Translations under genes and position numbers: made by a program
Assembly (NCBI GenBank): GCA_029261035.1
Contig: JAJDCD010000023.1
Coordinates: 1 to 38,500, forward strand
Source of the DNA: Candidatus Omnitrophota bacterium
GTDB taxonomy: Bacteria; Omnitrophota; Omnitrophia; Omnitrophales; JACROU01
Length of the DNA stretch: 38,500 bases
Direction: 5' to 3'
Shown: one piece after another, positions 1,371-30,154 of the stretch
Layout: the number at the start of each line of letters is the position of its first letter
How positions within the stretch are numbered: the stretch's first letter is position 1
Notes under the pieces: model-generated
The model's database searches: none
Told to the model about the DNA's origin: nothing
Seen by the model: the letters and a program-made list of their open reading frames with translations, nothing else

Positions 1371-4202
1371 ATGAAGATACAAAAAGACCCATCCATAGAA
1401 GAAAGATTGAAGCCTTTAAAGAAGGATGTGAAGTTTTTAGGACACATTCTTGGAGAGGTAATTCAAGCCCAAGAGGGGAGCTCTATTTTTAAATTGGAGG
1501 AGCGAATCCGTAAGACTTCCATTGAGGTTCGTCGCAAGTTCAATAGCAAAAAAGAGAGCGAGCTGTTAAGTCTGATTCACCGAACAGATCCTCAGGTTGC
1601 TATTAAAATTATTCGAGCCTTTACGGTTTACTTCCAGTTGGTGAATTTAGCAGAAGAGAATTATCGAATTCGAAGAATTCGCCAGGATAAAAACTCTCTA
1701 CGCAAAGCAACTTTTAAGGGAATCATTCAGGTTTTACAGAAAGAGAAAGTTTCTTTAAAACAGATTCAGAAATTTATGTCGCAGATGTTTACTCGGCTTG
1801 TTTTGACAGCGCATCCTACTGAGGCGCAGAGGCGTTCTATTTTGACGAAATTAAGAAGAATCAGTGCTGCTTTGTTTGATTATGAAAACACGAGATTTAC
1901 TCCATTCGAGAAAAAAGAAATAGAGATTAATATTTATAAAGAAATAACGGCTCTTTGGCAAACGGATGAGCTTAGACGTAGGAAACGCACCGTAACGGAT
2001 GAGGTTAACAACGGGATTTATTATTTGGATGAAATTATTTTTGAAGTTTTACCAAAAGTTCATCAGCAATTAGAGAATGAATTAACAGCGATCTATGACG
2101 GTCCGGTTCAAGTGCCCAATCTATTGACCTTTGGGAGTTGGATTGGAGGAGACAGAGATGGAAACCCTAATCTAACACATAAAGAAACCATGTTCACTGC
2201 TCTTTTACACCAAGAGTTAATTTTGAAAAGATATATCAAAACAATCTCTCATTTAATTGATAGTTTTAGTCAGTCTTCAGACTTAGTTTCTGTTTCTGGA
2301 GAATTAAAAAGATCTTTAGAAAAAGACAAAAAAGAATTAAAAAAACATGGATTTGATTTTTTAGGGCATTTAGACAAAGAACCTTATAGAGCAAAGTTGG
2401 TTTATATTGAACGTAAGTTACAAGGAACCTTGGAAAGAGTAGAAGATAAAAAACGGTATTTTGAGTCTGGACAAAAAGAGAAGAGTAAATCTTACTTTTA
2501 TTACTCTATTTCAGATGATTTACTTGAAGATATAAAGGTGATGAGGAAAAGTTTGACAGCTTCGAAAGCTGAGATTCTGGCGACGGAAGAGTTGGATCCT
2601 TTTTTGAGAATGGTCCGTCTATTTGGTTTTAGTTTTGCTCCTTTGGAAATTAGAGATCACCGAGATTCTATTTTTCAAACAGTCAGTGAATTGGTATATC
2701 GAAAGAGTTCAGGAAAGACTCAATGGAAAAAACTGTCAGAGGATGAACGCGTTGAATACTTAACTAGAGATTTGTTAAAAAAACCTGATTTATTAAAGGA
2801 TTACGAAGGATTGAGCGCTAAAGTAACGGAAGTTTTACGAACCTTGGAAACGGTTCGTAATATTAAATCCTCTATGAGTTCAGGGGTGATTGATTCTTAT
2901 GTTTTAAGTATGACGGAGCAAGCAAGCGATATTTTATCTTTAGGGTGGCTCTTGCACGTTATGGGGCTGACAGAACAAGAAAATCATGGGCCTAAAGCGC
3001 TTCTCTCGATTGTTCCGCTATTTGAAACTGTGGATGTGATTCATCGATCTTCCCAAATTATGAAAGTTTTGTACAAAAATAAAGCGTACCAAAAAATTTT
3101 AAAAAACTGTGATAACCAACAGCAAATTATGTTGGGATATTCCGATAGTAATAAAGATGGGGGATTTGTAACTTCAAATTGGAAGTTATATAAAGCGCAG
3201 CAAGAATTGTGGAGCGTTTCAGAAAAATACAAAGTACAGATTATGTTTTTTCATGGACGGGGAGGGACGGTTGGGCGAGGTGGGGGTCCGACGAATAGAG
3301 CTATCTTAGCTCAGCCTCAGAACACTGTACGTGGGAAATTTAAAATGACAGAACAAGGTGAAATGATTTATTCTAAATTTTCAAATCCTTGGATTGCAGA
3401 ACGAAATTTAGAGTTGGTTATTTCTGCTGTTTTTGAAGCAAGTTTGTCTAAGAAACATTTAAAAACACATCCAAAGCAGAAGGTTTGGGAAGAGATTATG
3501 GAGCAGTTCTCGGATGTGGCACATCATACTTATCGAGATTTGATTTATAATGATCCTCAATTTTTGGAATATTTTTCTCAGGCGACACCGATACAGGAAA
3601 TTAGCTGTCATCAGATAGGTTCGAGACCTGCGTCTAGAAATTTTCAACAAAAAACGGTTTCCTCTATTGAGTCTTTAAGAGCTATTCCATGGGTTTTTGC
3701 TTGGAATCAATCCAGGCATACGGTTCCAGGTTGGTATGGTTTTGGTTCTGCTTATCGGGATTATCTTCGAAGTAATCCAAAAGGGGGCATTGAGGAGATT
3801 CGACAGATGTATCAAGAATGGCCTTTTTTTCAAGCAATGGTTGAATTGATGCAGTTGAGTATGAAGAAGGCAGATTTACATATAGCCAGGCAGTATTCCA
3901 ATTTAGTTTCTTCTAAAGCAATTCGAGATCGGATTTTTGGACGTATTGAAGAAGAATATCAATGGAGTAAAAAAGCGGTTCTGGAGTTGACACAGCAGAA
4001 AGAGTTGTTGGCAAATCGTCAGACGTTGCAAAATTCGATTCGTTTGAGAAATCCTTATGTGGATCCACTGAGTTATATTCAGATTAGTTGTTTAAAGAAG
4101 TTGAGGGCGCTTAGGGATAATTCGAGTAAGAAGGAGCAGTTGGAGAGGGCTGTTTTTTTGAGTATTAATGGGATTTCACAGGGGTTGAAGAATACGGGGT
4201 AA
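1371..4202 (+). CDS. ppc: Phosphoenolpyruvate carboxylase
   Basis: This 943-residue cytoplasmic enzyme carboxylates PEP with bicarbonate to form oxaloacetate, the anaplerotic entry to the TCA cycle. Family signatures appear in order: LTAHPTEAQRRS at about 147 with the catalytic His, GSWIGGDRDGNP at about 258, LGYSDSNKDGG at about 590 with the active-site Lys, the glycine- and arginine-rich HGRGGTVGRGGGP loop at about 628, GSRPASR at about 745, WVFAWNQSRHTVPGWYG, and the C-terminal ...NTG end that binds allosteric effectors in known PEPCs. It is somewhat longer than the 883-residue E. coli enzyme, mainly through a charged N-terminal region. The ORF is intact. There is no Shine-Dalgarno in the few bases between the -10 box and ATG 1371, which suggests leaderless translation. 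Confidence 0.97.
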   Translation: MKIQKDPSIEERLKPLKKDVKFLGHILGEVIQAQEGSSIFKLEERIRKTSIEVRRKFNSKKESELLSLIHRTDPQVAIKIIRAFTVYFQLVNLAEENYRIRRIRQDKNSLRKATFKGIIQVLQKEKVSLKQIQKFMSQMFTRLVLTAHPTEAQRRSILTKLRRISAALFDYENTRFTPFEKKEIEINIYKEITALWQTDELRRRKRTVTDEVNNGIYYLDEIIFEVLPKVHQQLENELTAIYDGPVQVPNLLTFGSWIGGDRDGNPNLTHKETMFTALLHQELILKRYIKTISHLIDSFSQSSDLVSVSGELKRSLEKDKKELKKHGFDFLGHLDKEPYRAKLVYIERKLQGTLERVEDKKRYFESGQKEKSKSYFYYSISDDLLEDIKVMRKSLTASKAEILATEELDPFLRMVRLFGFSFAPLEIRDHRDSIFQTVSELVYRKSSGKTQWKKLSEDERVEYLTRDLLKKPDLLKDYEGLSAKVTEVLRTLETVRNIKSSMSSGVIDSYVLSMTEQASDILSLGWLLHVMGLTEQENHGPKALLSIVPLFETVDVIHRSSQIMKVLYKNKAYQKILKNCDNQQQIMLGYSDSNKDGGFVTSNWKLYKAQQELWSVSEKYKVQIMFFHGRGGTVGRGGGPTNRAILAQPQNTVRGKFKMTEQGEMIYSKFSNPWIAERNLELVISAVFEASLSKKHLKTHPKQKVWEEIMEQFSDVAHHTYRDLIYNDPQFLEYFSQATPIQEISCHQIGSRPASRNFQQKTVSSIESLRAIPWVFAWNQSRHTVPGWYGFGSAYRDYLRSNPKGGIEEIRQMYQEWPFFQAMVELMQLSMKKADLHIARQYSNLVSSKAIRDRIFGRIEEEYQWSKKAVLELTQQKELLANRQTLQNSIRLRNPYVDPLSYIQISCLKKLRALRDNSSKKEQLERAVFLSINGISQGLKNTG

Positions 4203-6825: not shown

Positions 6826-9800
6826 ATGAAAAGAATTAAAATTTTATCTATATTAATGAGCATGGTATTTGTTATGCAGACAGTTATTATTTCTCCTGTG
6901 ACAGCAAATCCAGAAGCATCAACTTTAGGAATTAAAATTTCTCCACAATTGGCTACAGTTAATATGTATGCCTCTAAACATTCTGAAGGCAAGAAAGTTT
7001 TCTTTATTCAGGATGCACATTCTAATTATGAAGCACAACAAAAAGTGAGAGATATTTTAAAAGAAATGGTTCCTCAACTTAAAACCCAAACAGTTTTGGT
7101 TGAAGGAGCGACGAAGTCTTTAGAACCGCGTGTTTTTGATTTTTCTGATTCCGAGATTATAAATAAGCAGGTTGCAGAAAAGTTGGCTCAAAAAGGGTTG
7201 GTTAATGGGGCGGAGCTTTTTATGTTGGAGCCTGAGGCTAAGGATGTCTCCTTTTTAGGCTTGGAGAAAGCGGAGCTTTATACTCAAGAGCGTGTCGCTT
7301 TTATGAATGTGATTCAATTGAAGAGTGAAACAACTCGTTTTATTTCTTTACTCGAAAGTCGTTTGGATGCCCTAAAAGCTCGAGTGTTTAATAGTAAGCT
7401 TAGAGAGTTAGATCGTAAATTTTCTGATTACAAAAAGAAAAAGATTTCTTTGCTGGCCTGGTTTCGTGCGTTAGATGCTATGACCTTAAAGAACCTGATA
7501 TACCCTTTAAATGATCCAAAGAACATCCGGGATTATCCCAACTTAGTACGTCTTGCCATCAGTAATGAAGCGTCCACACAAATAAGAACAGACCTTTTAG
7601 CAAAAGAGAAGAAAGAGCTTACGACTCTTTTGGCCACATACCCCGAACAACAACAGTTGCTTTCTTTGATAGGGACCAACCAAGTTTCTAGGATTAACGA
7701 AGAGAGTGTTGCGCGCCTTTTTGAAGTAGCAGAGAGCTTAGGCGTTGATTGGAATCAATTTTTGCATATAAGAAAGTCTTTTATTTCTCAGCTTCTAACT
7801 TCTGATATGGATGGAAACGAGCTGTTTAGAGAGATGGAGATTTTAAAAGAAAGCCTTTATTTTGAATTAGCAGAAACAGAAAAAGAGAAAAAGGTTATTC
7901 AATTAGAGCATGAGCTACGTATTCTAAAAGATCTTTTGTCCTTAGAATCCACCCGTGAGACGTGGAAAAAAATCTTGGCTGAACTTAGTCAAATCAGTCC
8001 TAACGACTGGATGCGCCGTTATCAAGAGTTGGAGTTAAGTTCTAAAGGGTTGGAGTTGGAACTGATGAAGAAAGCTCAGACGGCTTTTGAGAACGCCGTT
8101 CGTTTTTATGATTTTGCACGGGATCGTGAGCAAGTATTTGCTGAGCGTATTCGTCAAGCATTACAAAAAGAAAAAAGTGATTCTGTAATTGTGTTAAGTG
8201 GAGGGTTTCATACAGAAGGTTTGTATTTGGAGCTGATTAAAGATCCGATACAGTTTTCTGTGATTCAACCGCAGCTTAAAAGTAAAACGGATATTCAAAA
8301 CTATTATGATGCTGTTTTCGAATCCAGAGATTTGAGTTTTGTAACAGGTAAGATGGCAGCAGTTCCTTATGCAGAGCTAGACCCTGAGCAACCTGCGAAT
8401 GCTTGGGTACGCGCGCAGATTGCAACTGAACTTTTAAATGAAGTAAACACTGCAGAGTTTAATGAAGCCTACTTAAATCAAAACCCTCTATTTGAACGGG
8501 CTGGGGCCACAGTTGTTGTCGAAGAAGGAATCATTCGTCTGGAACAACAAGAAGCATCAAGCTTAGGATTTGATGGGAGTCGCTGGACTCAGGAGCTTAC
8601 AATTGCTGGTTTAAAAGGACAGATGCAAAAGCTCATTCAAGATGGATTTGGAACGGAAGGAACTAGTTTTGCTTTGGTTGAAAATCCAAATGATAAAACA
8701 AGTTCTCTTAATATTTCTGCCGAAAATAGACAAGTAGAAGTTTTTTATACAAAAGATAGAACAGTCAGAGATATTTTAGAAGCTTTAATTAATTATAGTC
8801 CTGCAAGCGATATCCCTGTGGTCTTTAGTGTTAAGTTGAACCAGCTTGCAGAAGAGTATTTTCCTGATCTTGCAAGAAGAAGTAAGGTGCCTACAGAAGC
8901 TCCAAAACCTAAAGAATCTGTTATCAAAAGCACTTCTACAGAATTGACTTTGGTAGATTTTGAAAAAGTAAGTGTAGACGGTATTGCTTTTAAACTGCAG
9001 CTTAATTTTTTGGTAACAACACCAAACCAAGTAGATGTAAGGTACATCCCTTTGGGTGGTAACAATGTCCAGATCACGGTTGAGTATGGGCCTAAGGCGG
9101 ATGCGAAAACCATTCTTAAAGCATTGCTCAACAACCCTCAAGTAAGAGATCGGGAAGATATCTATTCAGCATTTCAAGAATTGTCTCAAGCTCAAGCAAG
9201 CAGTTTGGGAGAGAATTTAAAAATATTATCGAATGCGGAAATTGTTTCTAAACTCAGTGCTGTCATTAATGAGAATAGGGTGGCTTCCACAAGAGTTACA
9301 CCACCTTTGGAGTTGGCTTTAATCACATCAGAAAATCAGACTCTAGGTAGACCTTCTACTATTAGTCGAAGTTATTTGAATTCGGATAAAATATTGGTAG
9401 AAAAAGTAACTGTTACAGCTCATCCTCAGGAATCTATTTTGGTAATTGCTAAATCTATAGAGAGCTATCCACTTAGAGTTAGAAATGCATCTTCAGCAAT
9501 GCCTTTGGATGTTCGTTCTGCTTTTTCGAGCCTAGCACAAGGAAAAAGCAAAGTTATTGCTACTCAGGAATTGCCAGAAAGTGTTAGAGCGAAGTTGGCT
9601 GAGGTTATAGATGCGTCTAGTATTTCCGAAGTAAGTGCTGAAAGTTCTGTTCCGGTGGCCGTTTCTCCAGAATCGAAAGCTAAACCTATAGCATTAGATG
9701 TTCAAAATCTTTCAACGCCTCTTTCTAGTGCAAATGAAACAATACAAGCATTAACAGCTGTTGGGAGTCAGCCTCAACTAGCAATAGGTGCATCTATTCA

Positions 9801-11532
9801 TTTTTCCCCTAATTTGCTTTTTGCTTTAGCGCCTCGACCTGTGAGTCCTGATGGAACTTTTGTTCAAGATGAAGCTATTTCTCGTGTTGCACTTCCAGAG
9901 GTTAAAGTAGCTCCAGGGCTTCTAGTTCAAGAGAATTCATCGTTCAATGTTACTGCGACTCCTGCATTAGTGCCGGTGATGCCAGGAAAAAGTATTTTAC
10001 CAGTAAACCCAACGCGCTTTTTTATTGGGGAAAATTTAAATGTTGTTGGAGAAACTCAAATTAGTTTGGGACAAAACTCAGTTCTTATTATTGGGAATAA
10101 TGTAAGACTAGAAAACTTACGGTTAAATGTGGGTGATAATCAAAGGCTTGTTATAGGAGATAATGCGGTTCTTTCTGGAGTGCTTATTTTATTTCCTTTG
10201 GACAATAGAGCCCGAGAACCATTTACTACGGAGACCACAACGAGTCCCTCTTTACCTCTGGCGGTGATATCATCAAACACACAAGCTGCTTTGAATTTGC
10301 CTTCTGTTGCCGTTGAGGCTAGCGGCCAGCTGCTAATCCCTGAGGGAAATACAAATGTGAGTTTTCCTGAAGTTATTGTGGGTCAGGATACTCAAGCAAC
10401 TGTTAATCCATCCACTGGCGAAGTGGATACAAGTGTTCCTGATGCAGAGCTTGTTTTACAAGCGCGTAGTTTGGGGTTCCCTCAAGCTGGATTGCCGCTA
10501 CCAACGGTGAATCGTGTTATACCCAACCCTCGTTTCCCAACAACTCCTAATTTTCCGACGGCAGATCGCATTGCACAGCTGGGTGGCGTCGTAAGCACTC
10601 CAGAGAGTTTTCTGGAATACTTGTCTTTGTTTAGAGCTACCATTCCAAATAAGCGATTCACTCTTGAAGAGCAAGTAGCGTTAGCGGAAGTGGCTTTAGA
10701 AGATTCAAGATTTGTGAACCCTTTGATTGCAGATGGAATCATTCGTATTGGTTTACAAGATCCCTCAGTGCAGCTTCAGAACATGGAGACAAGCTTGGGA
10801 CGTGTTCAAACTAATTTGCAAACAGAAATTTTAAAAGCAGTGATTTTGAAACTCAAAAATAATCGAGTTTCGGTTACTTTGGCCTTGAGTGATCCGAGTA
10901 GTGTCTTTTCATTAAACAACGATGCTTACAAACAAGCGGTTGAATTTCATCTTCAGAATAATCCAAATGCAACTTTTCAATTTGTCCATTTAGGCTCTGC
11001 TGAGGATATAGAAAAAATTGATGAGCAGTTTTATCGATTTGGAGAACGTTTTAAAGTTATCCCCGCCACGTCTCAAAATTGGCAAATAGCGTTAAAAGGA
11101 CTTATGGGAGAAGAGTTGTTGCAAGTGGTGCGACGCTTGCCTGCAGGTTTACCGATTAAAACATTACAGCAACTTTATGGGAATAAACACATTTCTGTTT
11201 TATTACCCGCTCCAGCTTGGAAACAGAATGTTGAGCTGCCTAGTGAGTCTATTGTTAAAGTAAGTTCACTAGCTCAGGATACAGACTTTTTTCAGAATGC
11301 AGACCAGAACTACGGTATCGTAAATGACGTTGCTTTCTTGGAAATTAGTTTGGCACAATTAGTTTCGCTTTTTGAAGGTAAAAATTTAGAATTGAGACAA
11401 GTTATTCCTGGGGAAGTTTTTATTTATGCAGATAATTTCTTCAGTTTAAATCGAGATCAAATGCTTCAAGGGCTCATTGATGATATTCATGAGCAAGCGA
11501 TCCAACTACAACGCTTGGCATATCAGGCATAG
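6826..11532 (+). CDS. Giant secreted protein 1: TIKI/ChaN-like N-terminal domain plus unknown multidomain region
   Basis: This protein has 1568 residues. A Sec signal peptide (residues 1-27, basic start, hydrophobic core, VTA before the likely cut) is followed at once by EASTLG (30-35). Residues about 55-480 form a domain shared with the two giant proteins at 19771-34758: QDAH (His65), VEGA (Glu about 93), GLE...Y.QE, a long helical middle, and SGGFHTEGL (His462). Two GxxH-like motifs bracketing an acidic residue recall the TIKI/TraB/GumN and ChaN/EreA superfamily; this match is remote. After ASSLG (577-581) come two similar beta/alpha units, then ASSLG (791-795) and a low-complexity stretch. 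A hexapeptide-like beta region follows at about 1060-1120 (IGENLNV, IGNNVRL, IGDNAVL). ARSLG (1213-1217) and TSLG (1322-1325) precede a C-terminal alpha/beta region. The downstream function is unrecognised. AAGGGAAAAGGG upstream is the ribosome site. Confidence 0.85.
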   Translation: MKRIKILSILMSMVFVMQTVIISPVTANPEASTLGIKISPQLATVNMYASKHSEGKKVFFIQDAHSNYEAQQKVRDILKEMVPQLKTQTVLVEGATKSLEPRVFDFSDSEIINKQVAEKLAQKGLVNGAELFMLEPEAKDVSFLGLEKAELYTQERVAFMNVIQLKSETTRFISLLESRLDALKARVFNSKLRELDRKFSDYKKKKISLLAWFRALDAMTLKNLIYPLNDPKNIRDYPNLVRLAISNEASTQIRTDLLAKEKKELTTLLATYPEQQQLLSLIGTNQVSRINEESVARLFEVAESLGVDWNQFLHIRKSFISQLLTSDMDGNELFREMEILKESLYFELAETEKEKKVIQLEHELRILKDLLSLESTRETWKKILAELSQISPNDWMRRYQELELSSKGLELELMKKAQTAFENAVRFYDFARDREQVFAERIRQALQKEKSDSVIVLSGGFHTEGLYLELIKDPIQFSVIQPQLKSKTDIQNYYDAVFESRDLSFVTGKMAAVPYAELDPEQPANAWVRAQIATELLNEVNTAEFNEAYLNQNPLFERAGATVVVEEGIIRLEQQEASSLGFDGSRWTQELTIAGLKGQMQKLIQDGFGTEGTSFALVENPNDKTSSLNISAENRQVEVFYTKDRTVRDILEALINYSPASDIPVVFSVKLNQLAEEYFPDLARRSKVPTEAPKPKESVIKSTSTELTLVDFEKVSVDGIAFKLQLNFLVTTPNQVDVRYIPLGGNNVQITVEYGPKADAKTILKALLNNPQVRDREDIYSAFQELSQAQASSLGENLKILSNAEIVSKLSAVINENRVASTRVTPPLELALITSENQTLGRPSTISRSYLNSDKILVEKVTVTAHPQESILVIAKSIESYPLRVRNASSAMPLDVRSAFSSLAQGKSKVIATQELPESVRAKLAEVIDASSISEVSAESSVPVAVSPESKAKPIALDVQNLSTPLSSANETIQALTAVGSQPQLAIGASIHFSPNLLFALAPRPVSPDGTFVQDEAISRVALPEVKVAPGLLVQENSSFNVTATPALVPVMPGKSILPVNPTRFFIGENLNVVGETQISLGQNSVLIIGNNVRLENLRLNVGDNQRLVIGDNAVLSGVLILFPLDNRAREPFTTETTTSPSLPLAVISSNTQAALNLPSVAVEASGQLLIPEGNTNVSFPEVIVGQDTQATVNPSTGEVDTSVPDAELVLQARSLGFPQAGLPLPTVNRVIPNPRFPTTPNFPTADRIAQLGGVVSTPESFLEYLSLFRATIPNKRFTLEEQVALAEVALEDSRFVNPLIADGIIRIGLQDPSVQLQNMETSLGRVQTNLQTEILKAVILKLKNNRVSVTLALSDPSSVFSLNNDAYKQAVEFHLQNNPNATFQFVHLGSAEDIEKIDEQFYRFGERFKVIPATSQNWQIALKGLMGEELLQVVRRLPAGLPIKTLQQLYGNKHISVLLPAPAWKQNVELPSESIVKVSSLAQDTDFFQNADQNYGIVNDVAFLEISLAQLVSLFEGKNLELRQVIPGEVFIYADNFFSLNRDQMLQGLIDDIHEQAIQLQRLAYQA

Positions 11533-19770: not shown

Positions 19771-22700
19771 TTAAGCCATAACTGCAACGAGGCGTTTAGC
19801 TTTCATGAGCTGAATTAAGCCTGTGAGGACGCTCTCAGAGAGGGTGAAGCTGCCATCAGAGTCTTTTTCAAAAAGACCATCGGTTTCTAAGCCGAGGGCG
19901 AGATAGGCCGAGGCCATGGCATGAGCGGCTGCATACTCTTCGTCTTTGGAGAATTTGTCTGAATTGTATTTAAGGCGTTTTACATCTTCTCCCAAATCGG
20001 ATTTGAACTCCGAGCTGACTAAAGCCACATTTTCCGGAGACAGATTACTAAGTCCAGCTTTTCTAAGCATGGGACGAATAAATTGAGCGGCTCTTTGATT
20101 AATTAGATTTTGAACATCATATTCATTTAAAGATGAAAGCCCTTGAGAAGCATCTATTTGAGCTATTTTTGGATAAAACACAAATCCCATTCTTTTTCTT
20201 TGGAATAGGTTTGGATATGCTTTATTCAAACGATTTGCTTTTTGTCTGTTACCAATAAGGAAAAATAGTGCGGCACGGTCCGAGTTATAAATTTGATTTG
20301 TCTCTGCGGTTTCAAAACGTTTCACAAGGTCTTCATTTAGGGGCATAAAAACAGTTCCGACGCGATCTCCTTTGTAGTTCGTAACGCCATCCATAATTTG
20401 TTGCGCTGCCTTGTTTACATCTATGACATTTGCTTGAATAGTAGTAGGGAATGAGGTGGGCGCATTCATATTTAATTCAGTCTTGATGGAAGGAAGGATG
20501 TTATTAAAATAATCTTCAATGAAGGCGTTAGGAGTTTCAAACTCTCCTAAGATTGCTCTCATAACCCATTCGCTCAAAGTAACAGGGATTTTGTTGTCTA
20601 AGGAGTTTAAAGGAAGGGGTTGTAGCCCTGTTGGCAGTTCTTCAATATCAATTCCAGACAATAGCGTATAGACTTGGGCCCCTAAAGAAGAGGCGGAAAT
20701 GCGTGTTCGATTTCGATATTCATTCATTAATTCGTTGACGTTTGAAATACGACTAGAGATAGGGGAAGCAAGCGCTTGTGTTCGTTGAAAACCAGGAACG
20801 TTAACTCGAAGAGTTTGTCCACGGCCTGTCGGAGTAGTAGCTGATGAAGCTGCTTGTCCAACTCCTGTACTTTCATCTAAAGTTGTTTGCCATGTCGCTA
20901 TGGCTTTGATTAATTGGGAAACATCTTGTGCCATAAGATCTAAAGAGGCATATCGGTTTAGAGGGTTGGCATTCAATGCTTGATCTACAATCGTGTCCAA
21001 ACGCTCTGTGAGTTCTTTAGGTAAGGATACCCCTCGACGTTCAAGTATCAAACTTGGACGTTCATATTTAAGCTTTTGTCGAAGCATTGTGGTAGCAATG
21101 CCATCAAACTCATTTTTTTGTGTAAAATCGATTTCGTAGGGCAATCGACCGGTTAAAGCTTGGTACAGACTGACCCCTAAGGCATAAATATCAGAGCGTT
21201 GACTTTCTTTTCTGATGTATTGTTGATACTCGTCAATTTGATCTATATTGATGAGTCCTGCATTCCATAGGTCTTGAGTGGTTTGCCCTATTAATTCAGG
21301 AGCCATAAATTCTGGGGTTCCGTATATGATTTCTTCTTCTTTAATTTCGGAGCTCCATTTAAATAGGCCTAAGTCAATGACAACAACATTACCGTCTATA
21401 TCCATAATCAAATTAGCAGGTTTGATGTCCCTGTGAACACCCTCTCCTTTATCAGGATGTTTGGCTTTTGAGTGAAGTTCAAATAGGGCTGTTGCTGCTT
21501 TAACTCCAAAAATATCTAAAAGATCTTTGAGCATAGTTAATTTTGCGTCTTGTTTTCCAACAAAAAGAAGTTGGTTTTCTGTGATCAAGTTTAAAGGCTT
21601 TCCTTCAATAAACTCCATAGCATAACTATTTCCATTTTCGGCAACATATCTGGGAATAGACTGAATACCTGCTTGAGAGGTGAGGTAAGAGTGGTTTTCT
21701 TTCTCTTTTTTAAATAGATCAACATTGTAAGGATTTGTTTGCTCGATCAGTTGTTTTATTGCTAAAAGTTGGCCGTCGGCGCGTTCCACTAAGTAAACAG
21801 CACCAAAACCCCCCACACCAAGAGAGCGAAGGACTTTAGCTTTGACGGCGCCTAGAGATTCAGCTTGTACTTGGATCTCATTTATTTGCTCTGAAAGAAA
21901 TTCTGGAGCAAAGCCTACTTCTTCTAAGGCGTTCCGTATCTCTGCTGGATCCTGAGGGTTGAAGCTCTCAAAGGCTGTTAATTGGGGGGGGGCTTGATAA
22001 AGGTTTGCCATTTGTCCTAACGATTGAGCTTGAATAACTTCATCCAGTAAGCGGTCTGTTTCATAGATCTTCACTCGATCAAATTCAAAGAAATTAAATC
22101 CATTAAAGGAAACGCGAATGAAGGGCTCTAAAACGTTATTGAGTTTAGCCATTCTCTGTTTGGCAAAGATTTGTTGGGCACGTTCTGGAGAATCGCGAGA
22201 GAGTTGTGTGAAGAGGGTTCTCAGAGTATCTGTTAATTTATTTTTGAGTATTTTTTTGTACTCTTCATAAGGCTCATTATAATCTATAGGACTAATCTTT
22301 AAACTTTCATAAAAATCATCGGACCAATTGAGATCTTTTACCTGTAAGGGAAAGATTTTATTCAAAAGCGTTTTAACTGCTTTTTCTAACATTGCAGGAG
22401 CCAATGCCGGGGAAGCCAACTCAACTAAGGCGGCCCTGGAAATAGGCGTGCCCGTAATTTGATATCCAAATTGTTGAAATAGAAATCTAACTAGGTCTTT
22501 GTTGATGCTATTTTCTGAATAGTCTAGCCCAGAAAGAAAATCGGTTAACATTTCTTGAAATTCATCTAAACCTTCAATGCCTGTCTCCGCTACTTCGTCT
22601 GAACTATCCAACTCATCTAAATCTTCCAACTCCTCAATTTTCATCTCCTCTACTTCCCATTCTTTTTCTTGCAATTGAGCTTCACCCAATACGCTTAAGT

Positions 22701-25700
22701 CTATTTTTTCAAAAATATCTTTAAGGTCTTCTGCTTCTGTATAAAAAGCCTCGAATTCGGAGCTGGAAATAGGTTGTAAACCTTTGCTTTCCAGCGCGTA
22801 ATTAAGGGCGTATAAGATTTCCCAACGCACTATTTCTGCTTCTAGCTTTTTATCTAAGTCCTGAAGGATAGAATAATTGGCTAGGGGATTTCCGCTAAGA
22901 GCTACATAGAACAGGTCTACAAGGCTTTCGGGAATAACATCTAAGGAGAGGTTGACATCGATTTCGAATTTTCTAGCCAAATCACTCCTTACATTCTTTA
23001 GATAATTTTCAAATACAGTTCCAAATCTTTCTCGATTTAGTTCATTCTTTTGAGAGAGTTTTCTTAAGGAAAGGCTCATAGCTTGAAGACCGCGGAATTC
23101 ATTGATGTTTATAGTTTCGTTTGTAGTTCGACTTAAAATAGCATTGAGGGCTTGCTCTAGCTGTTCTTTCATCATATCGGATACGATTCTTTCCAACCGT
23201 TTTTCCAATTGGCGTGCTGCGGATCTATTTTTAGGGTTGGGACTCAAAAGGGTGGTGATAGCATCTTGAAGCCTTTGTGGAAAAGAGAAGTCAGCGACAC
23301 CAGACTCTTTTAAGCTTTGGTCTAAAGATTGAATATCCTGAGGCTGTATCCCTGCGATTTTCTTTTTTGCTTGGTCCTTGCTTAATCCAATGAGGTCGAA
23401 AGGAAGTTTTCCAGTCAACAAGTGATGGAAGACAACTCCAAGTGAAAACATGTCTGACTTTTGAGATACTTCCCGTATGTTTCCGGCGGCCATTTCTGGG
23501 GAGTTGTAAGCAATAGACCCTCGTCGGGTATTCTCGGGTAGAGTTTGTGTTTCTTCTTGTGTGATGGCTAAACCTAAATCGAAAAGTCGGACAGTTCCGT
23601 AGGTATCTATATAAAAGTTTTCTAATTTGAAGTCGTTGTTAATTTGGCCCGTTTGAGCTTGGTAATTTTGTACAGCTTTGGCGATGGCAAGCATATCAAA
23701 AACACGCGTAAATAAAGAGGCGGATTCATAATCTTTTATAGTGTTAGGAAAAACGTTTCTATTAGCGAAATATTTATCATCAAGAAATACCCCGCCTTCT
23801 AATAGCTCTATCGCAATATAAGGCTGTTTCCATTTTATGGAGCTTTCGGGATCTGTCACCACTTCGTAATTTTGCTCATAGATACGTACCACATGAGGGG
23901 ACTTTTCCGCGGCTTTTAAGATCTGAGCTTCACGGGCAAAAACACGAGTTGCTCTTTGTAAGGCTTCCTTACGACTCCCTAATTCTCGGGTTAACATTCT
24001 AAGGTAACGGTTGGAAGGTCTTTTGACTGCGACCATTGGAATATTTGTGCCGAGTGTTTTAATGGGAGCTTCTAATTCTACGCGGTCGATAACTCCCATT
24101 GATCCTTCTCCGATACTTTGAGAGGTTTTTACATTGGCTTTTGTGACAACTCTTTTGTCGCCGAGAGATTGGGCACTGAAAATACTTTCTTCAAATGGAG
24201 ACGTTGGGAATTTTTCAAAATCATCTTCCTCCTCTAGGAGAGGTAGGGTGGTGAAAGTAGTGTGTTCAGCAGAACCTCTTTCTCTATCCTGTCGGGCTTT
24301 GTAGCGTTTAAGAATAGAATCAAGAAATTTATCGTCTGATTTTTTTTCAGGAGCTTCTTTTTTTTCATCAAGAGGCGCTATATTGAAAAAATCCAAATCA
24401 ACATCGGCAAAGGTTTCTTCTTTTTCGATCACTCGTTTAGGCTTTACAATTTCATTGACAGAAATCGTAATATTGTTGGTGTTTATTATCTCTATAATTT
24501 GACCGAGTTCTCTTATTAAGCTCTCCGTTGAGGGACGTTCTTCAGGCCGCATGCGAACCGCTTTGTACATCAACTCAACCAAAGGATTTAATACTTCTTC
24601 AGGAATTGTTAATTCAATACTTCCAAATTCTTTCATGTCGCTTAAGAATTTTTCTTTAAAATCTTCTAAGGAAATGGGACTTTTACCCTTATTTAAAACA
24701 TCATCAAAATAGAGTCTCATTATGCTGAAATCTGTTCCGTAAGGGGCTGTTCCAGTAAACAAGAAATAAAGATTGACCCCCCAAGCATAAATGTCTGCTT
24801 TTTCGTCAATAGCATTAAGTTCACCTACTAACATTTCTGGAGAAATATTGATTAAACTTCCAATTTCTTTTGTTATGGAGCCCTTTCGAATTGCTTCTTT
24901 GGTTTGGGCCAGACCAAAATCAATTATTTTGACATTGCCATCTGACGTTAAGAGGGTATTGCCTAGTTTTAAATCTAGATGCACAATACCTTTAGAATGA
25001 ATATAGCTTAGGCCTTTGGCAAATTCTTGCATAATTTGAAGACGGTCTTTAAAGCCATATTCTTGAAATTGGCTATACAAATCAGAGGTATCCCCTGAGC
25101 CTTCTTTTTTAAAGATCAGCTCTATGAGCTCTTTGCCTTCGACAAGCTCCATCAATAGATACTCTGTTTCTTTTAAATTATCTGGAAGCTCTTGTTCGAA
25201 AGAAAGATCCGTCATTTTCCCATCTGTAATATATTCAGGGATGTAAGGAGAACCTTTCAGTCGTTCTAAAAGAGTAGATTCATTATTAAAACGGATCCTA
25301 GATTTTTCAGCGTCTTCGTAGGGACCCGGGGTATTGGTTTTTAATGCGAAATGACGATCTATATTAGAGATATCAAAGACAGTTCCTTGGGTGCCTTGCC
25401 CTAAGCGTCTTTCGACTGAGAGTGTTCCTAGAGCATTGGCAACGACGGTTTCTTCCAAAATAAAACTTTTGCCAGGCTCTACGAATTCTTCAACAGAATC
25501 AGCAGCAAAAATAGGTGGTGCAGCCGCTTGCCTTGGAGGCGGGAGAGTCTCTCCCGTAATAGCCGTTTGATTTCCAGTGACAGAAACGTAGTTTGGCACT
25601 CCATCCAGAGTTTCACCGGCGTCCTCTTGTGAATCAATAAATGTAAGAGGTATTCTGGGGTCAGTAACAATATCTACATATTGAATGCGAACACTATCAG

Positions 25701-28700
25701 GGGAGTCTATTGTCAAATCTGAGATAGCGGTTATGATTTGATCTAGTTGTTTAATCGCAGAAACGAGATCTATTCGATCGTCTTTTTCTGGATCCATCAG
25801 CTTTTGGATTATGTGAATGATGCGTTCAAAAATTTCTTTTGGAATAATTAGTTCTAGCCCAAAATCTTCTAAATCAGATTTGAAATTTGTGCTTAGCACT
25901 TTTTCTAACAAAACAGAAACTTTAGAAGGGTCATTTGGGAATCTTACTTGGAGTTGTTTTTTCTCTTCTGTTTTATTGAAAATTCTTTGGGCCAGCTCTG
26001 GAAGAGAATTACCGGTTATAGGCAGGCTGCCTGTTAAAATTTTGTAAGCCAATACACCTAATGCATAAATGTCGGACTTTTCACTATTTGCGTTAGCGTC
26101 ACTTACTATCATTTCGGGGGAATAGTAGTACGGAGTTCCAACAGCCACACCTTCTCTTTCTTTTGTGTCCAATTTTCTAGCGAGCCCAAAATCAAGCAAC
26201 CTTACCTCTCCCGAAGCTGTTTTCATCAAGTTTGCAGCTTTGATGTCTTGATGTATGGTTCCCTTAACGTGTGTTGATAGAATAGCTTTAGCGGCTTCTC
26301 GTATAGTCTCTAGCCGGTCCAAGAGATCATAGGAAGAAACATCTGGGTTCGAATATTTTTGTTCTAAATTTTCTCCTTCAACAAGTTCCATGACAATAAA
26401 TAGATCATTGTCTTCGAACGGGATATTTTCTATTTCAAACTGGAGCTGAGACAGGGTTCCATATTCAATGATTTTGGGAATGTAGGGGGATTCGTCGAGT
26501 TCTTGCATGAATTTTCCTTCATTAATAAATCGAGTTCTTTGTCTTTCGTTGGCAGATTGTGCATTCTTCATTACTTTTAGAACAAACCGTTTATCTCCTT
26601 GCTGTAATTCGTATACGATACCCATTCCGCCTCTTCCTAGTTCTTTAACAATGGTGTAACTGCCTAGGCTGAAGCCATCGGCTGATTGAATGTCTACATT
26701 AGTTTGAACTAAGGAATCTGCTTTTGGTTCAACGAGTTTTTGAATGGAAGTTATGTTTTCAGCAGGAAAGGCTTTTATTTGCTCTGGGCCAGCGTCATCT
26801 ATGAGCTGAATTGTTTTTTCTAATCCTTCAATGGCTTCATCAATATTAAGACGGCCTTCTGGTGTTGCATTGAGAAGACCCGTTATTAAGTTGATGAGGC
26901 TATCAAAAATAGTTTCTGGAATAAAAACCTGTGTCTTTGCTCTATTAACTAAGTCACTATGGAATTGGTATCTCCACTCTTCCCGTAAAATTTCTATCCC
27001 TTTGTTTGCATCCTGGTTAAGTCGGCGGTGTTGTTTAACAAGCATTTCTTCAATACTTCTTCCTTTAATGGCAGGGTGACCGGTAAGGATCTGATAGAGG
27101 ATAGCACCCAGAGAATAAACATCGCTCGGTTCTAGAGCTTTTGTTTCTCCGCGTAATAACATTTCTGGAGAAACTGTTTGGATTGTTCCAACTGTTCTTA
27201 GTTGATTCCCAAATTCAGCTAAATCTTCTTTTGTTATTGCCAGTCCAAAATCGAGAAGTTTTACATTTCCATTGGCATCCAGGATGAAGTTGGATGGCTT
27301 AACGTCTCTATGAAGGATTCCTCGTTTCTGAACATCTTTAATGGCTTTGGCTGCTTCGAGAATTGCTTTAAGTCGACTGGAAAGATCAAACTGTTGATAG
27401 CTGAGATGCATTGCCTGCTTGTTAATAAACTGATCTTCAAAGGTTTGTCCGGAAACAAGTTCCATAATTAAGTAAAGGTCGTTTGGGTTCAGTTGAATTT
27501 TATCTGAGCTTACAGTTAGGTCCCTAACGGAGCCGCTTTCGAATGTGTCTGCAACATAAGGGGAGGTGCTTAGTAATTTTTGTAGGCTAATTTCTCTTTG
27601 GACTTTTTGAGGGTCTCTTTGGCTGGAATCAAAGATTTTCATTGCATAGGACTTGTCTCCTTGTCTCAAAGCATAAATAACTCCTTGAGCGCCTCTTCCA
27701 ATTTCATGTTCGATTGTGTAAGACCCTAAAGAGTTTGCCGTGCTTACTTCAACATCAAGGCTTGAAGTCAAAGCAATAGGAATCGAAGTAGGTGTGCCGT
27801 CAATAGAGATGGTTACGGTTCCAACTTGAGAATAGTTGTTGGAAACATTTTTAATTCCTTCTCGTAAGTCCGAATTTTCTGAAGTGGGGAGGATAGCTAT
27901 TTCAAATAATGTTCCTTCGTTATTGGAAGCCGTGATGATGTTTCCTTCTGTTTTTATTGGAGTTAAGGAGCCGTCAAGCGATTCGATAATGGAATTAACT
28001 GTATCCGTTGAAATAACCACATCCGTTGTGGCCACTTCAATGCTGGTGTTGACACTCACAAATAAAAACTGAGAGTTATCTTCCAGAGGATGAGCGGTTT
28101 TAAACAGAACATTCTCTGGGGAAGGTTGCTTGAGTAGTCTGTCTGCCGTTTTTTTATCTACGAGTGATGTGATGATGTTAACTGAGACCCCATTAATATT
28201 AAATTGCATTCCATTGTTCATAGTTTGACGGCCTGCAATATTTTTCTTTGAAGCATTTGATACAGCAGCAGAATAAGCAGATACGGTGCTGGGAGCCAAT
28301 TGACTTAGAAGGCTTTCGGTAAGCATAAAGGTGCTCTGAGCCGTAGGGGAGCCCTCAACGAAGCTGCTTCCAGGTTTCGTTGTGAAGTAGCTTACAGCTT
28401 TTTCCAGGTCTTTGTTTTTTCCGGCAAGGGTTCTCCAATAAAGAGAGGCGTCTTGGTCTAATCCGACTTGAGGTACCAGTAACGCATAGGCTGTATTGGA
28501 GTCTTTAAAATAGTCTGTTAATTCTTTGGCATGAAAACCGCCTACGACTAAAAAAGCTGTTTTGTCATTTTGGTTTTTCATTAGTTGGTTTAAATTTTTG
28601 AAAAGCTCCTTGTTTCGTTTTAGGGCACTTTCATAAAAATTTTCCGCTTCTCTCAAAACTAAAACAGATTCATAAAAATTGTCTTCAACTTGATAGCTCA

Positions 28701-29967
28701 TTAAATACTCTTTGAAATACTGATTTAGAACTTTCCAGTAATTGGAATCGGTTAAAGTTTTTTTGTGCGATTTAAAATAAGCGTATTCTTCATCGGTTAC
28801 TTCCAATACCCATAGTTTTTCTATTAAACGAAGCATCCGGTCTCGTTCCGCAATATTTTTTTCTCTGCCGCTTTCGCTAAACGCATTAATGAGGAGAAGG
28901 TAGATGTCTTCTAGGTCCGTAAAAAATCGATCAGCATCTATGGAAAGAGTAGAATTTAAATAAGTGATATATTTGTTTGTTTCATTTAAAACTTTAGGAT
29001 GAGCCGGTGCTTGACGAAGCATTTGTTCTAGATTTTGGACAAACAGGCGCCCCTCTTGTTTGGATTCAAAAGAAAAGGGAGAGCGAAACACCCCTAAAGA
29101 TTGAAGTTCTTGAGTGAGCTGGGGTTTATTTATTTTGTTTTCAATATCAATCAGGTTTTTCATCGTTTGATAAGAAGAAAAGCGGCTAAGAGAAATATTT
29201 TTTACTTTAGCTAAGCCCTCTAAGCTAACAAAGTGCTCTTTAATACTTTGTGGATTTTTTTCAAAATGCTTGATGGTTTCATCCAGTTTTTTTAGAAAGT
29301 AGGAAAATGCTCTCCGCTTTAATTCATCAATTGCTTTTCGGAGGAGGGGGAGATCAAATTGAATGCGTTGTTTTTTTTTCTCAGCATTTTTAAAAGCCAT
29401 TACATTTTGATTATATAAAGAAATATCCTCGATGCCGAAAAGGCGTGCGTTTGGATTGTAGTTTGCCTTGTAATATTCAGAGCCATCGAGCTTGCCTTCA
29501 TTAAGTAAAAAATCAGAAATAGCTCTGCGAGCTTTGTCGATGGGATTGGCTGTTAAAACAGAGTAATCCAGTTTTTTCTGGACGTTGGTTCCTTCCAGAG
29601 CAACTAAGGGAGCTTGGTTTGGGAAAAGCTGAGGAGCCTTTTTTGTTAAATAATCATAAATTTTTGCTGTAGAGTATTGAGCTTTAATATTATTGTGAGG
29701 GTCTTGCATCACAAAGATAAGACGATCTACTTTTTTATCAGGAACAAAAACTTCTGTGATGAAACCGAATTTGTCAGGGATCGATATGTTATTGAGTGTG
29801 TCTTTCAGTCCAGAGAAGGAAATATTTGTTTTGTTAACAGGAGTTAGATAAGAACTTTGAGCAGAAACCGGACCTGTGGCAAATACACTTTGAAGAAGAA
29901 AAAAGCAGAGTGTAAGCCAAGCGATTGTTCGCTTCCAAATTGTAATGGGCCGAGAGTTGCGAATCAT
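19771..29967 (-). CDS. Giant exported protein 2: TIKI/ChaN-like domain plus five Ser/Thr kinase domains
   Basis: This protein has 3398 residues. The N-terminus is basic, then hydrophobic (TIAWLTLCFFLLQSVFA), ending near VSA at about 36, a Sec-type signal. Residues about 75-510 share the two-histidine domain of the other giant proteins: MQDPH, ALEGTN, GIEDISLYNQN and VGGFHAKEL at about 476. Five Hanks-type kinase domains follow. K1 (about 750-1055) has GRGAQG, AMKIF, HRDVKPSN, DFG. K2 (about 1100-1415) has GRGGMG, VLKVM, HQDIKAAN, DFG. K3 (about 1513-1825) has GQGTQG, ALKTN, HLDLKLGN, DFG. K4 (about 1935-2265) has GEGSMG, AVKRP, NNDFKLEN, DLG. K5 (about 2705-3020) has GVGGFG, AIKQL, HRDIKPAN, DLG. 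All five keep the ATP lysine, catalytic Asp, Asn and metal Asp. Acidic helical linkers lie between K3 and K5. A-x-S-L-G motifs precede K1, K4 and K5 and other junctions. AGAGGAG is the ribosome site. The C-terminal ~300 residues are unrecognised. Confidence 0.9.
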   Translation of the reverse strand: MIRNSRPITIWKRTIAWLTLCFFLLQSVFATGPVSAQSSYLTPVNKTNISFSGLKDTLNNISIPDKFGFITEVFVPDKKVDRLIFVMQDPHNNIKAQYSTAKIYDYLTKKAPQLFPNQAPLVALEGTNVQKKLDYSVLTANPIDKARRAISDFLLNEGKLDGSEYYKANYNPNARLFGIEDISLYNQNVMAFKNAEKKKQRIQFDLPLLRKAIDELKRRAFSYFLKKLDETIKHFEKNPQSIKEHFVSLEGLAKVKNISLSRFSSYQTMKNLIDIENKINKPQLTQELQSLGVFRSPFSFESKQEGRLFVQNLEQMLRQAPAHPKVLNETNKYITYLNSTLSIDADRFFTDLEDIYLLLINAFSESGREKNIAERDRMLRLIEKLWVLEVTDEEYAYFKSHKKTLTDSNYWKVLNQYFKEYLMSYQVEDNFYESVLVLREAENFYESALKRNKELFKNLNQLMKNQNDKTAFLVVGGFHAKELTDYFKDSNTAYALLVPQVGLDQDASLYWRTLAGKNKDLEKAVSYFTTKPGSSFVEGSPTAQSTFMLTESLLSQLAPSTVSAYSAAVSNASKKNIAGRQTMNNGMQFNINGVSVNIITSLVDKKTADRLLKQPSPENVLFKTAHPLEDNSQFLFVSVNTSIEVATTDVVISTDTVNSIIESLDGSLTPIKTEGNIITASNNEGTLFEIAILPTSENSDLREGIKNVSNNYSQVGTVTISIDGTPTSIPIALTSSLDVEVSTANSLGSYTIEHEIGRGAQGVIYALRQGDKSYAMKIFDSSQRDPQKVQREISLQKLLSTSPYVADTFESGSVRDLTVSSDKIQLNPNDLYLIMELVSGQTFEDQFINKQAMHLSYQQFDLSSRLKAILEAAKAIKDVQKRGILHRDVKPSNFILDANGNVKLLDFGLAITKEDLAEFGNQLRTVGTIQTVSPEMLLRGETKALEPSDVYSLGAILYQILTGHPAIKGRSIEEMLVKQHRRLNQDANKGIEILREEWRYQFHSDLVNRAKTQVFIPETIFDSLINLITGLLNATPEGRLNIDEAIEGLEKTIQLIDDAGPEQIKAFPAENITSIQKLVEPKADSLVQTNVDIQSADGFSLGSYTIVKELGRGGMGIVYELQQGDKRFVLKVMKNAQSANERQRTRFINEGKFMQELDESPYIPKIIEYGTLSQLQFEIENIPFEDNDLFIVMELVEGENLEQKYSNPDVSSYDLLDRLETIREAAKAILSTHVKGTIHQDIKAANLMKTASGEVRLLDFGLARKLDTKEREGVAVGTPYYYSPEMIVSDANANSEKSDIYALGVLAYKILTGSLPITGNSLPELAQRIFNKTEEKKQLQVRFPNDPSKVSVLLEKVLSTNFKSDLEDFGLELIIPKEIFERIIHIIQKLMDPEKDDRIDLVSAIKQLDQIITAISDLTIDSPDSVRIQYVDIVTDPRIPLTFIDSQEDAGETLDGVPNYVSVTGNQTAITGETLPPPRQAAAPPIFAADSVEEFVEPGKSFILEETVVANALGTLSVERRLGQGTQGTVFDISNIDRHFALKTNTPGPYEDAEKSRIRFNNESTLLERLKGSPYIPEYITDGKMTDLSFEQELPDNLKETEYLLMELVEGKELIELIFKKEGSGDTSDLYSQFQEYGFKDRLQIMQEFAKGLSYIHSKGIVHLDLKLGNTLLTSDGNVKIIDFGLAQTKEAIRKGSITKEIGSLINISPEMLVGELNAIDEKADIYAWGVNLYFLFTGTAPYGTDFSIMRLYFDDVLNKGKSPISLEDFKEKFLSDMKEFGSIELTIPEEVLNPLVELMYKAVRMRPEERPSTESLIRELGQIIEIINTNNITISVNEIVKPKRVIEKEETFADVDLDFFNIAPLDEKKEAPEKKSDDKFLDSILKRYKARQDRERGSAEHTTFTTLPLLEEEDDFEKFPTSPFEESIFSAQSLGDKRVVTKANVKTSQSIGEGSMGVIDRVELEAPIKTLGTNIPMVAVKRPSNRYLRMLTRELGSRKEALQRATRVFAREAQILKAAEKSPHVVRIYEQNYEVVTDPESSIKWKQPYIAIELLEGGVFLDDKYFANRNVFPNTIKDYESASLFTRVFDMLAIAKAVQNYQAQTGQINNDFKLENFYIDTYGTVRLFDLGLAITQEETQTLPENTRRGSIAYNSPEMAAGNIREVSQKSDMFSLGVVFHHLLTGKLPFDLIGLSKDQAKKKIAGIQPQDIQSLDQSLKESGVADFSFPQRLQDAITTLLSPNPKNRSAARQLEKRLERIVSDMMKEQLEQALNAILSRTTNETININEFRGLQAMSLSLRKLSQKNELNRERFGTVFENYLKNVRSDLARKFEIDVNLSLDVIPESLVDLFYVALSGNPLANYSILQDLDKKLEAEIVRWEILYALNYALESKGLQPISSSEFEAFYTEAEDLKDIFEKIDLSVLGEAQLQEKEWEVEEMKIEELEDLDELDSSDEVAETGIEGLDEFQEMLTDFLSGLDYSENSINKDLVRFLFQQFGYQITGTPISRAALVELASPALAPAMLEKAVKTLLNKIFPLQVKDLNWSDDFYESLKISPIDYNEPYEEYKKILKNKLTDTLRTLFTQLSRDSPERAQQIFAKQRMAKLNNVLEPFIRVSFNGFNFFEFDRVKIYETDRLLDEVIQAQSLGQMANLYQAPPQLTAFESFNPQDPAEIRNALEEVGFAPEFLSEQINEIQVQAESLGAVKAKVLRSLGVGGFGAVYLVERADGQLLAIKQLIEQTNPYNVDLFKKEKENHSYLTSQAGIQSIPRYVAENGNSYAMEFIEGKPLNLITENQLLFVGKQDAKLTMLKDLLDIFGVKAATALFELHSKAKHPDKGEGVHRDIKPANLIMDIDGNVVVIDLGLFKWSSEIKEEEIIYGTPEFMAPELIGQTTQDLWNAGLINIDQIDEYQQYIRKESQRSDIYALGVSLYQALTGRLPYEIDFTQKNEFDGIATTMLRQKLKYERPSLILERRGVSLPKELTERLDTIVDQALNANPLNRYASLDLMAQDVSQLIKAIATWQTTLDESTGVGQAASSATTPTGRGQTLRVNVPGFQRTQALASPISSRISNVNELMNEYRNRTRISASSLGAQVYTLLSGIDIEELPTGLQPLPLNSLDNKIPVTLSEWVMRAILGEFETPNAFIEDYFNNILPSIKTELNMNAPTSFPTTIQANVIDVNKAAQQIMDGVTNYKGDRVGTVFMPLNEDLVKRFETAETNQIYNSDRAALFFLIGNRQKANRLNKAYPNLFQRKRMGFVFYPKIAQIDASQGLSSLNEYDVQNLINQRAAQFIRPMLRKAGLSNLSPENVALVSSEFKSDLGEDVKRLKYNSDKFSKDEEYAAAHAMASAYLALGLETDGLFEKDSDGSFTLSESVLTGLIQLMKAKRLVAVMA

Positions 29968-30107: not shown

Positions 30108-30154
30108 CCCACAAACAGGCCCGGGCCTAGAGGAGGCCCGGGCCTGTTTGTGGG
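30108..30154. terminator. Perfect 21-bp GC-rich hairpin between giant proteins 3 and 2
   Basis: Arm 30108-30128 (starting CCCACAAACAGG) is exactly complementary to 30134-30154, with a 5-base AGAGG loop. It starts a few bases past the stop codon of the gene ending at 30160 and could end its transcript. On the minus strand the bases after it are only moderately T-rich. A weaker hairpin GTAAGCCC/GGGTTTAC lies at 30062-30088. Confidence 0.65.

Follow-up and report, generated by a model that had tools for sequence, protein, structure and literature searches.

A five-kinase protein of an Omnitrophota bacterium is one of a large class of TIKI-headed, exported-looking giants whose modules are divided by short peptide separators

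In this work, we have analysed a 38,500-nucleotide stretch of DNA from a groundwater Candidatus Omnitrophota bacterium (positions 1 to 38,500 of contig JAJDCD010000023.1, assembly GCA_029261035.1), hereafter called the window, and within it a minus-strand gene for a protein of 3398 amino acids (aa) with five Ser/Thr kinase domains in tandem. A reading of this DNA from its letters only had called such a chain rare. The five-kinase chain is real, but it does not stand alone: about 42 giants of the genome, this one included, share a head domain of the TIKI/ChaN/erythromycin-esterase (Ere) superfamily, and the modules of the five-kinase chain are divided by a short recurrent peptide, A-x-S-L-G. 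We lean towards the view that it is an exported polyprotein, in which the separators would serve as recognition sites, most likely proteolytic, and the freed kinases would act outside the producer, probably on a host or prey. The domain order, the catalytic residues, the leader-like start, the fold and invariant residues of the head, the statistics of the separators, their lineage specificity and the relatives of the protein are what the sequences show. The coordinates are collected in Table 1.

The open reading frame (ORF) has an ATG start, 3398 codons and no internal stop, and an AGGAG-type ribosome-binding site lies upstream of it; a frame artefact or a broken gene is thereby ruled out. Pfam recognises five Pkinase stretches in the protein (PF00069, E = 1e-157), and a genome-wide profile search concurs. 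The kinase positions were taken from the latter, with the start of kinase 4 placed by eye at the glycine loop. According to the alignment, the ATP-binding Lys of beta3, the alphaC Glu, the catalytic Asp and Asn, and the metal Asp are kept in all five kinases, in agreement with the sequence-only reading, which had described five apparently competent domains. The HRD motif reads HRD, HQD, HLD, NND and HRD in kinases 1 to 5, and the DFG motif is DFG in the first three and DLG in the last two. That is, the HRD arginine is missing in kinases 2–4, and the NND of kinase 4 is close to the NAD found in kinases 1 and 2 of a relative. Overall, the sequence gives no reason to regard any of the five as dead.

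The start of the chain has K/R followed by TIAWLTLCFFLL and a PVSA/QS site, and it looks like a Sec leader. In Kyte-Doolittle windows of 19 residues the leader scores 1.62; no internal window exceeds 1.6, the internal maximum being 1.49 within a kinase, and the rest of the chain is nowhere hydrophobic enough to look like a membrane span. These assignments come from simple hydropathy, not from trained predictors. They agree with the earlier claims of a signal sequence and of no second transmembrane span that would return the chain to the cytoplasm. From these the same reading had placed the kinases outside the inner membrane, where ATP is scarce. As competent-looking kinases stand behind an export leader with no return span, the puzzle of their ATP source does stand, but it is shared by a whole class of proteins. 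The modules resemble the PknB-type bacterial Ser/Thr kinases in that each is a complete Hanks kinase, and the best NCBIfam match is the PASTA kinase family. On the other hand, the protein lacks the kinase-transmembrane-sensor layout of that type, and five kinases come after its export leader; a search for a transmembrane span with PASTA repeats behind it gave neither a PASTA match in Pfam nor an internal span in the hydropathy plot.

Each of the five kinases starts 1–13 residues past a separator, and another separator precedes the C-terminal domain. The strict motif A-x-S-L-G occurs five times in the protein, while none of 20,000 shuffles exceeded two, which excludes a chance motif. Nor is it the mere N-terminus of a kinase, since copies also stand at residues 2647 and 3092, at a distance from any kinase start, and kinase-free giants carry it too.

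We have counted the strict motif in 54 giants of the Omnitrophota family to which the window belongs (f1), using shuffled sequences as control (n = 100). It is observed 179 times, against a shuffle mean of 6.1 and a maximum of 14 (~30-fold). The consensus around it is [VSAI][EQST]A-x-SLG[AV], with no further strong conservation at the flanks, which are enriched in disorder-promoting residues. The relaxed form [AG]xSLG is found once in 20,444 aa of heads versus 227 times in 123,718 aa elsewhere. The ~5,300 aa covered by cargo domains that Pfam recognises contain no copy, against an expectation of 9.7. Many cargo domains begin or end no more than 15 residues from a separator; in other giants, RNase_T ends at 1033 with the motif at 1045, PPDK_N at 2150 with the motif at 2162, and HATPase at 1159 with the motif at 1170. 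The first separator stands a median of 132 residues past the GGFH signature of the head. A motif general in the genome is excluded as well, with only one occurrence in 21,623 aa of smaller ORFs. At the DNA level, the commonest form of A-x-S-L-G has 114 sites, while its reversed control has 3; most of the listed sites fall in giant ORFs. Overall, recurrent putative recognition sites stand between the modules and none inside recognised cargo domains, as in a processed polyprotein.

In the homologous giants of other Omnitrophota families, AxSLG is generally missing and a different short separator is seen in its place. For each family other than f1, this assignment draws on one to eight proteins, a sample picked from the match list. 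RSE-x-R occurs 45 times in f5 giants (0.6 expected); f3 and f8 share this separator, which reads RSE[LAVM]R in all three families, and f7 has R[SA]ExR. GFGA occurs 15 times in f2 (0.15 expected) and GxSLG 22 times in f6 (0.24 expected), while AxSLG recurs in f4. In the 178,852 aa of f1 giants there is no RSExR at all, where 3.4 would be expected. This switch between families suggests a recognition site with a changing reader rather than a mere linker. The codons of the separators are skewed: at AxSLG sites of f1 giants, Ser is AGT in 54% versus 25% in the background, and at RSExR sites of f3, f5, f7 and f8 giants it is TCC in 62% versus 18%, with the first Arg codons also skewed. On the other hand, the Ala and Gly of AxSLG, and the Glu and second Arg of RSExR, are written with many codons while the residue is fixed, which argues for selection on the peptide.

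The head is a domain of ~430 aa right after the leader. Its sequence gives recurrent weak profile matches to ChaN, TraB/PrgY/GumN, DUF5682 and DUF5694, all of which we take to be relatives within the TIKI superfamily. The Pfam cut-off for TIKI/ChaN/Ere (PF04187, PF01963) is not reached, with a best E of 0.0058 and no protein of the window over the curated cut-off. The AlphaFold (AF2) model of the head has a mean predicted local distance difference test score (pLDDT) of 78.6. Six of its seven best VIA matches are superfamily members with Z of 7.2–9.0, namely HopBA1 (9.0), ChaN (8.6), EreC (twice, 8.1 for the better) and Bcr135 (twice, 7.3 for the better); the seventh is a Tetrahymena respiratory subunit outside the superfamily. 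Plain Foldseek with the same model gave no significant match, so the superfamily matches come from the second aligner only. Considering this null result and that a Z near 8 is only moderate, the fold assignment rests on the agreement of independent members together with the active-site residues.

These residues are highly conserved. H91, E125, R451 and the H479 of GGFH are invariant in 46 of 46 heads, and at the first acidic position of the E-x-H motif 38 of the 46 have Asp and 5 have Glu; eleven residues are invariant among 36 aligned heads. One studied TIKI endopeptidase uses a catalytic set of E-x-H, a Glu 28 residues later, and an Arg that precedes the last His by 29 residues (PMC6254334). 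In our head, D89-x-H91 is followed by E125 34 residues on, and R451 lies 28 residues before H479; the equivalence is drawn from order and spacing, not superposition. With an H/E/R/H set spaced like that of the endopeptidase, the head looks like an active hydrolase. It is thus like the TIKI/ChaN/erythromycin-esterase superfamily (PF04187, PF01963) in fold and H/E/R/H set, and differs by its very weak sequence match, the mostly Asp in place of Glu in E-x-H, and its place at the front of putative polyproteins.

A search with the head domain in the 2.7-Mb genome has found some 45 large ORFs of 503 to 16,199 aa, two others of which lie in the window. The GGFH signature is present in 42 proteins, and by hydropathy a leader is seen in 40 of these versus 15 of 52 other ORFs. 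The 47 giants of more than 1000 aa sum to 491 kb, i.e., 18% of the assembly. Of 58 Omnitrophota genomes from across the phylum, 54 contain the head, mostly in many copies, with ORFs of up to 24,618 aa. A narrower alignment against named genomes gave ten loci, nine of them in Omnitrophota, and the named relatives are groundwater Omnitrophota. One weak head match lies outside the phylum, in Candidatus Endomicrobium (L104, E 6e-5 among candidates). Exported-looking TIKI-type heads of about 500 aa also stand alone (G000:C16:405715-407208, L099 and L102). The longest ORF met in the genome, of 23,696 aa (G000:C4:123957-195047), lacks the head; its start resembles a leader.

Exonuclease, PGM/PMM (sugar-phosphate mutase) with UDPGP (nucleotidyltransferase), PPDK_N, NUDIX, HATPase and helix-turn-helix modules are the cargo of other giants. 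In one of them (L049, G000:C15:57771-67745), an ARMT1-like phosphatase, an AprA-type methyltransferase and helix-turn-helix modules each stand between separators. Since the other giants also carry nucleotide-dependent, cytosol-type enzymes, the puzzle of location extends to the class in its entirety. Giant ORFs of Omnitrophota have been treated as extracellular coats or adhesins (PMC10066038). Our class is like them in phylum, exported look, very large size and few annotated domains; the searched text of that paper makes no mention of a common TIKI head, separator motifs or kinase modules. A literature search on Omnitrophota and polyproteins, with bioRxiv and its giant-gene work outside its range, found nothing relevant, and neither did one on tandem bacterial kinases with the same range. 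Apparently, this large class of TIKI-headed, exported-looking giants with separators has been undescribed so far.

The C-terminal tail domain is found only in six kinase polyproteins among the 91 giants compared, and a structure comparison of its fold gave no clear match (best Z 5.1). A G002 relative of the same family (L095) has three kinases in the order kinase-AxSLG-kinase-AxSLG-kinase-AxSLG-tail, with a separator preceding each kinase. Although the linkers have drifted between this diverged relative and the five-kinase protein, the separators persist. G001 has three proteins (L096–L098) with one kinase each between separators, and the genome of the five-kinase protein encodes a second kinase polyprotein with two kinases (L029, G000:C24:210554-219130, 2858 aa), each followed by a hydrophobic span. 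If all spans of L029 were used, its kinase 1 would be outside and its kinase 2 inside. In a kinase tree, the terminal kinases of the five-kinase protein and the G002 relative pair (0.93), kinase 4 joins the first two kinases of G002 (0.999), and kinases 1–3 form their own cluster (0.94). These groupings and the layouts of the relatives indicate that the five kinases arose by gain and duplication of separator-bounded modules. As relatives with one, two or three kinases share the layout, the number five is an expansion in module number, and the description of a single odd exported multi-kinase protein proves too narrow.

We can sketch how such a protein would work; export and cutting, the protease responsible, delivery, and the activity and targets of the kinases are inferred from its sequence. 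A Sec-type leader would carry the chain out of the cytoplasm, with the TIKI-superfamily hydrolase-like head in front and the five kinases and C-terminal domain behind it as modules divided by A-x-S-L-G. A protease would then cut at the separators, as suggested by their placement, exactness and lineage switch and by the hydrolase-like head. It could be the TIKI head itself or another lineage-specific protease; the head may be the economical candidate, and the identity of the cutter is the step that we trust least. Four of the kinases would come out as products of about 350–420 residues, and the remaining one, of about 715 residues, would keep a long C-terminal extension; a spacer of 55 residues and the tail of 302 would also be set free.

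The freed kinases would act in another cell, a host or prey, where ATP is available; considering the cytosol-type cargo of other giants, the simplest destination would be that cell's cytoplasm. Among the earlier suggestions for the ATP puzzle, the best fit is action on delivered or host substrates, amended in that each kinase is probably set free as a protein of its own. Omnitrophota are presumed to live as symbionts, parasites or predators (PMC10066038). The same genome contains a marker of host dependence, a 912-aa open frame with a match to TLC-type ATP/ADP translocases (E 5.7e-18; L150, G000:C24:46342-47313). The proposed scheme is like that of the MARTX multi-effector toxins, secreted chains of enzyme modules meant for another cell, and a TIKI-superfamily endopeptidase is among the MARTX modules (PMC6254334). 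The head, the separators and the genomic scale of our class (dozens per genome) are unrelated to those toxins, and neither RTX repeats nor a cysteine protease domain are among the Pfam matches of the five-kinase protein.

Several observations weigh against an exported polyprotein cut at its separators. Kinase 3 is preceded by a degenerate separator (ANALG). Separators are sparse in some giants given their length, with 9, variants included, in a 16,198-aa protein and 2 in the 23,696-aa headless giant, and none stood out in the more distant f10 and f14 giants. The codon skew may fit short-DNA copying or an extra nucleotide-level signal. No processing protease has turned up, though none was systematically searched for. 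In addition, the hydrophobic span after a kinase in L029 and in the three single-kinase G001 relatives means that their topology may differ.

Alternatively, the giants could be uncut modular surface proteins, in which the motif is a conserved flexible joint or a peptide at which a factor of export or assembly docks, and the kinases work in cis or form a surface scaffold. The position of the motif between domains, its disorder-prone flanks and the coat or adhesin reading of Omnitrophota giants (PMC10066038) are in line with this. However, a mere joint needs neither an exact five-residue word with free flanks nor a switch between families, and cytosol-type ATP enzymes are ill-suited to a coat, so we regard it as unlikely. 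Quite unlikely is also that there is no ordinary export, i.e., that the leader is a membrane anchor or a signal for an internal compartment and some or all kinases use the cell's own ATP. The cytosol-type kinases and cargo would suit this, as would the receptor-kinase-like span after a kinase in the G001 relatives and the C24 protein L029, and a secretion route has not been traced; against it, the leader is the only span seen in the five-kinase protein, and nearly all headed paralogues keep one. That the separators reflect a DNA-level process, i.e., short repeats or recombination points for module shuffling whose peptide has no role, is very improbable, since the skewed Ser codons and the clear duplication and exchange of modules are outweighed by residues fixed despite varied codons and by the lack of strong conservation beyond the motif.

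Two further TIKI-headed giants lie in the window, one of them with four AxSLG. Between the five-kinase gene and the upstream minus-strand giant lies a long, GC-rich, strong terminator-like hairpin (30110-30152).

Table 1 Features of the five-kinase gene and its neighbours in the window. Residue numbers refer to the five-kinase protein.
Feature	Position	Strand	Basis
Five-kinase polyprotein gene, 3398 aa	19771..29967	(-)	Intact ORF; five Pfam Pkinase stretches
Signal-peptide-like leader, 1-36 (K/R, hydrophobic core, PVSA/QS)	29860..29967	(-)	Hydropathy and AxA-type site
TIKI/ChaN/Ere-superfamily head, about 50-510 (D89-x-H91, E125, R451, H479)	28438..29820	(-)	AF2 model, VIA matches, invariant residues
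Separator ANSLG (744-748)	27724..27738	(-)	
Kinase 1 (750-1046)	26830..27720	(-)	Pfam Pkinase
Separator GFSLG (1098-1102)	26662..26676	(-)	
Kinase 2 (1104-1401)	25765..26658	(-)	Pfam Pkinase and genome scan
Degenerate separator ANALG (1510-1514)	25426..25440	(-)	
Kinase 3 (1518-1818)	24514..25416	(-)	Pfam Pkinase and genome scan
Separator AQSLG (1932-1936)	24160..24174	(-)	
Kinase 4 (~1949-2254; NND in place of HRD)	23206..24123	(-)	Genome scan
Separator AQSLG (2647-2651)	22015..22029	(-)	
Separator AESLG (2702-2706), same place kept in G002 relative	21850..21864	(-)	
Kinase 5 (2712-3014)	20926..21834	(-)	Genome scan
Separator ASSLG (3092-3096)	20680..20694	(-)	
C-terminal tail domain (3097-3398)	19774..20679	(-)	
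Neighbouring TIKI-headed giant, 1541 aa	30160..34785	(-)	
Another TIKI-headed giant, 1568 aa, four AxSLG	6826..11532	(+)	

More tentatively, we may extend the reading to the phylum. As much as roughly a fifth of an Omnitrophota genome might code for exported polyproteins with a TIKI head that are cut at separators, perhaps by the head, and the code would have been replaced several times (AxSLG, GxSLG, GFGA, RSExR), with protease and sites co-evolving across dozens of loci and the freed enzymes reprogramming a host or prey. The 'giant ORFs of unknown function' of a widespread, uncultured and possibly predatory phylum become a readable system with a shared head, a separator code and defined modules. 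With predictable module borders, individual kinases and other enzymes become accessible to expression and assay. The lineage-specific separators offer a natural experiment on how a processing code may be replaced across dozens of proteins, and the kinases, if delivered, would be a new set of effectors between microbes.
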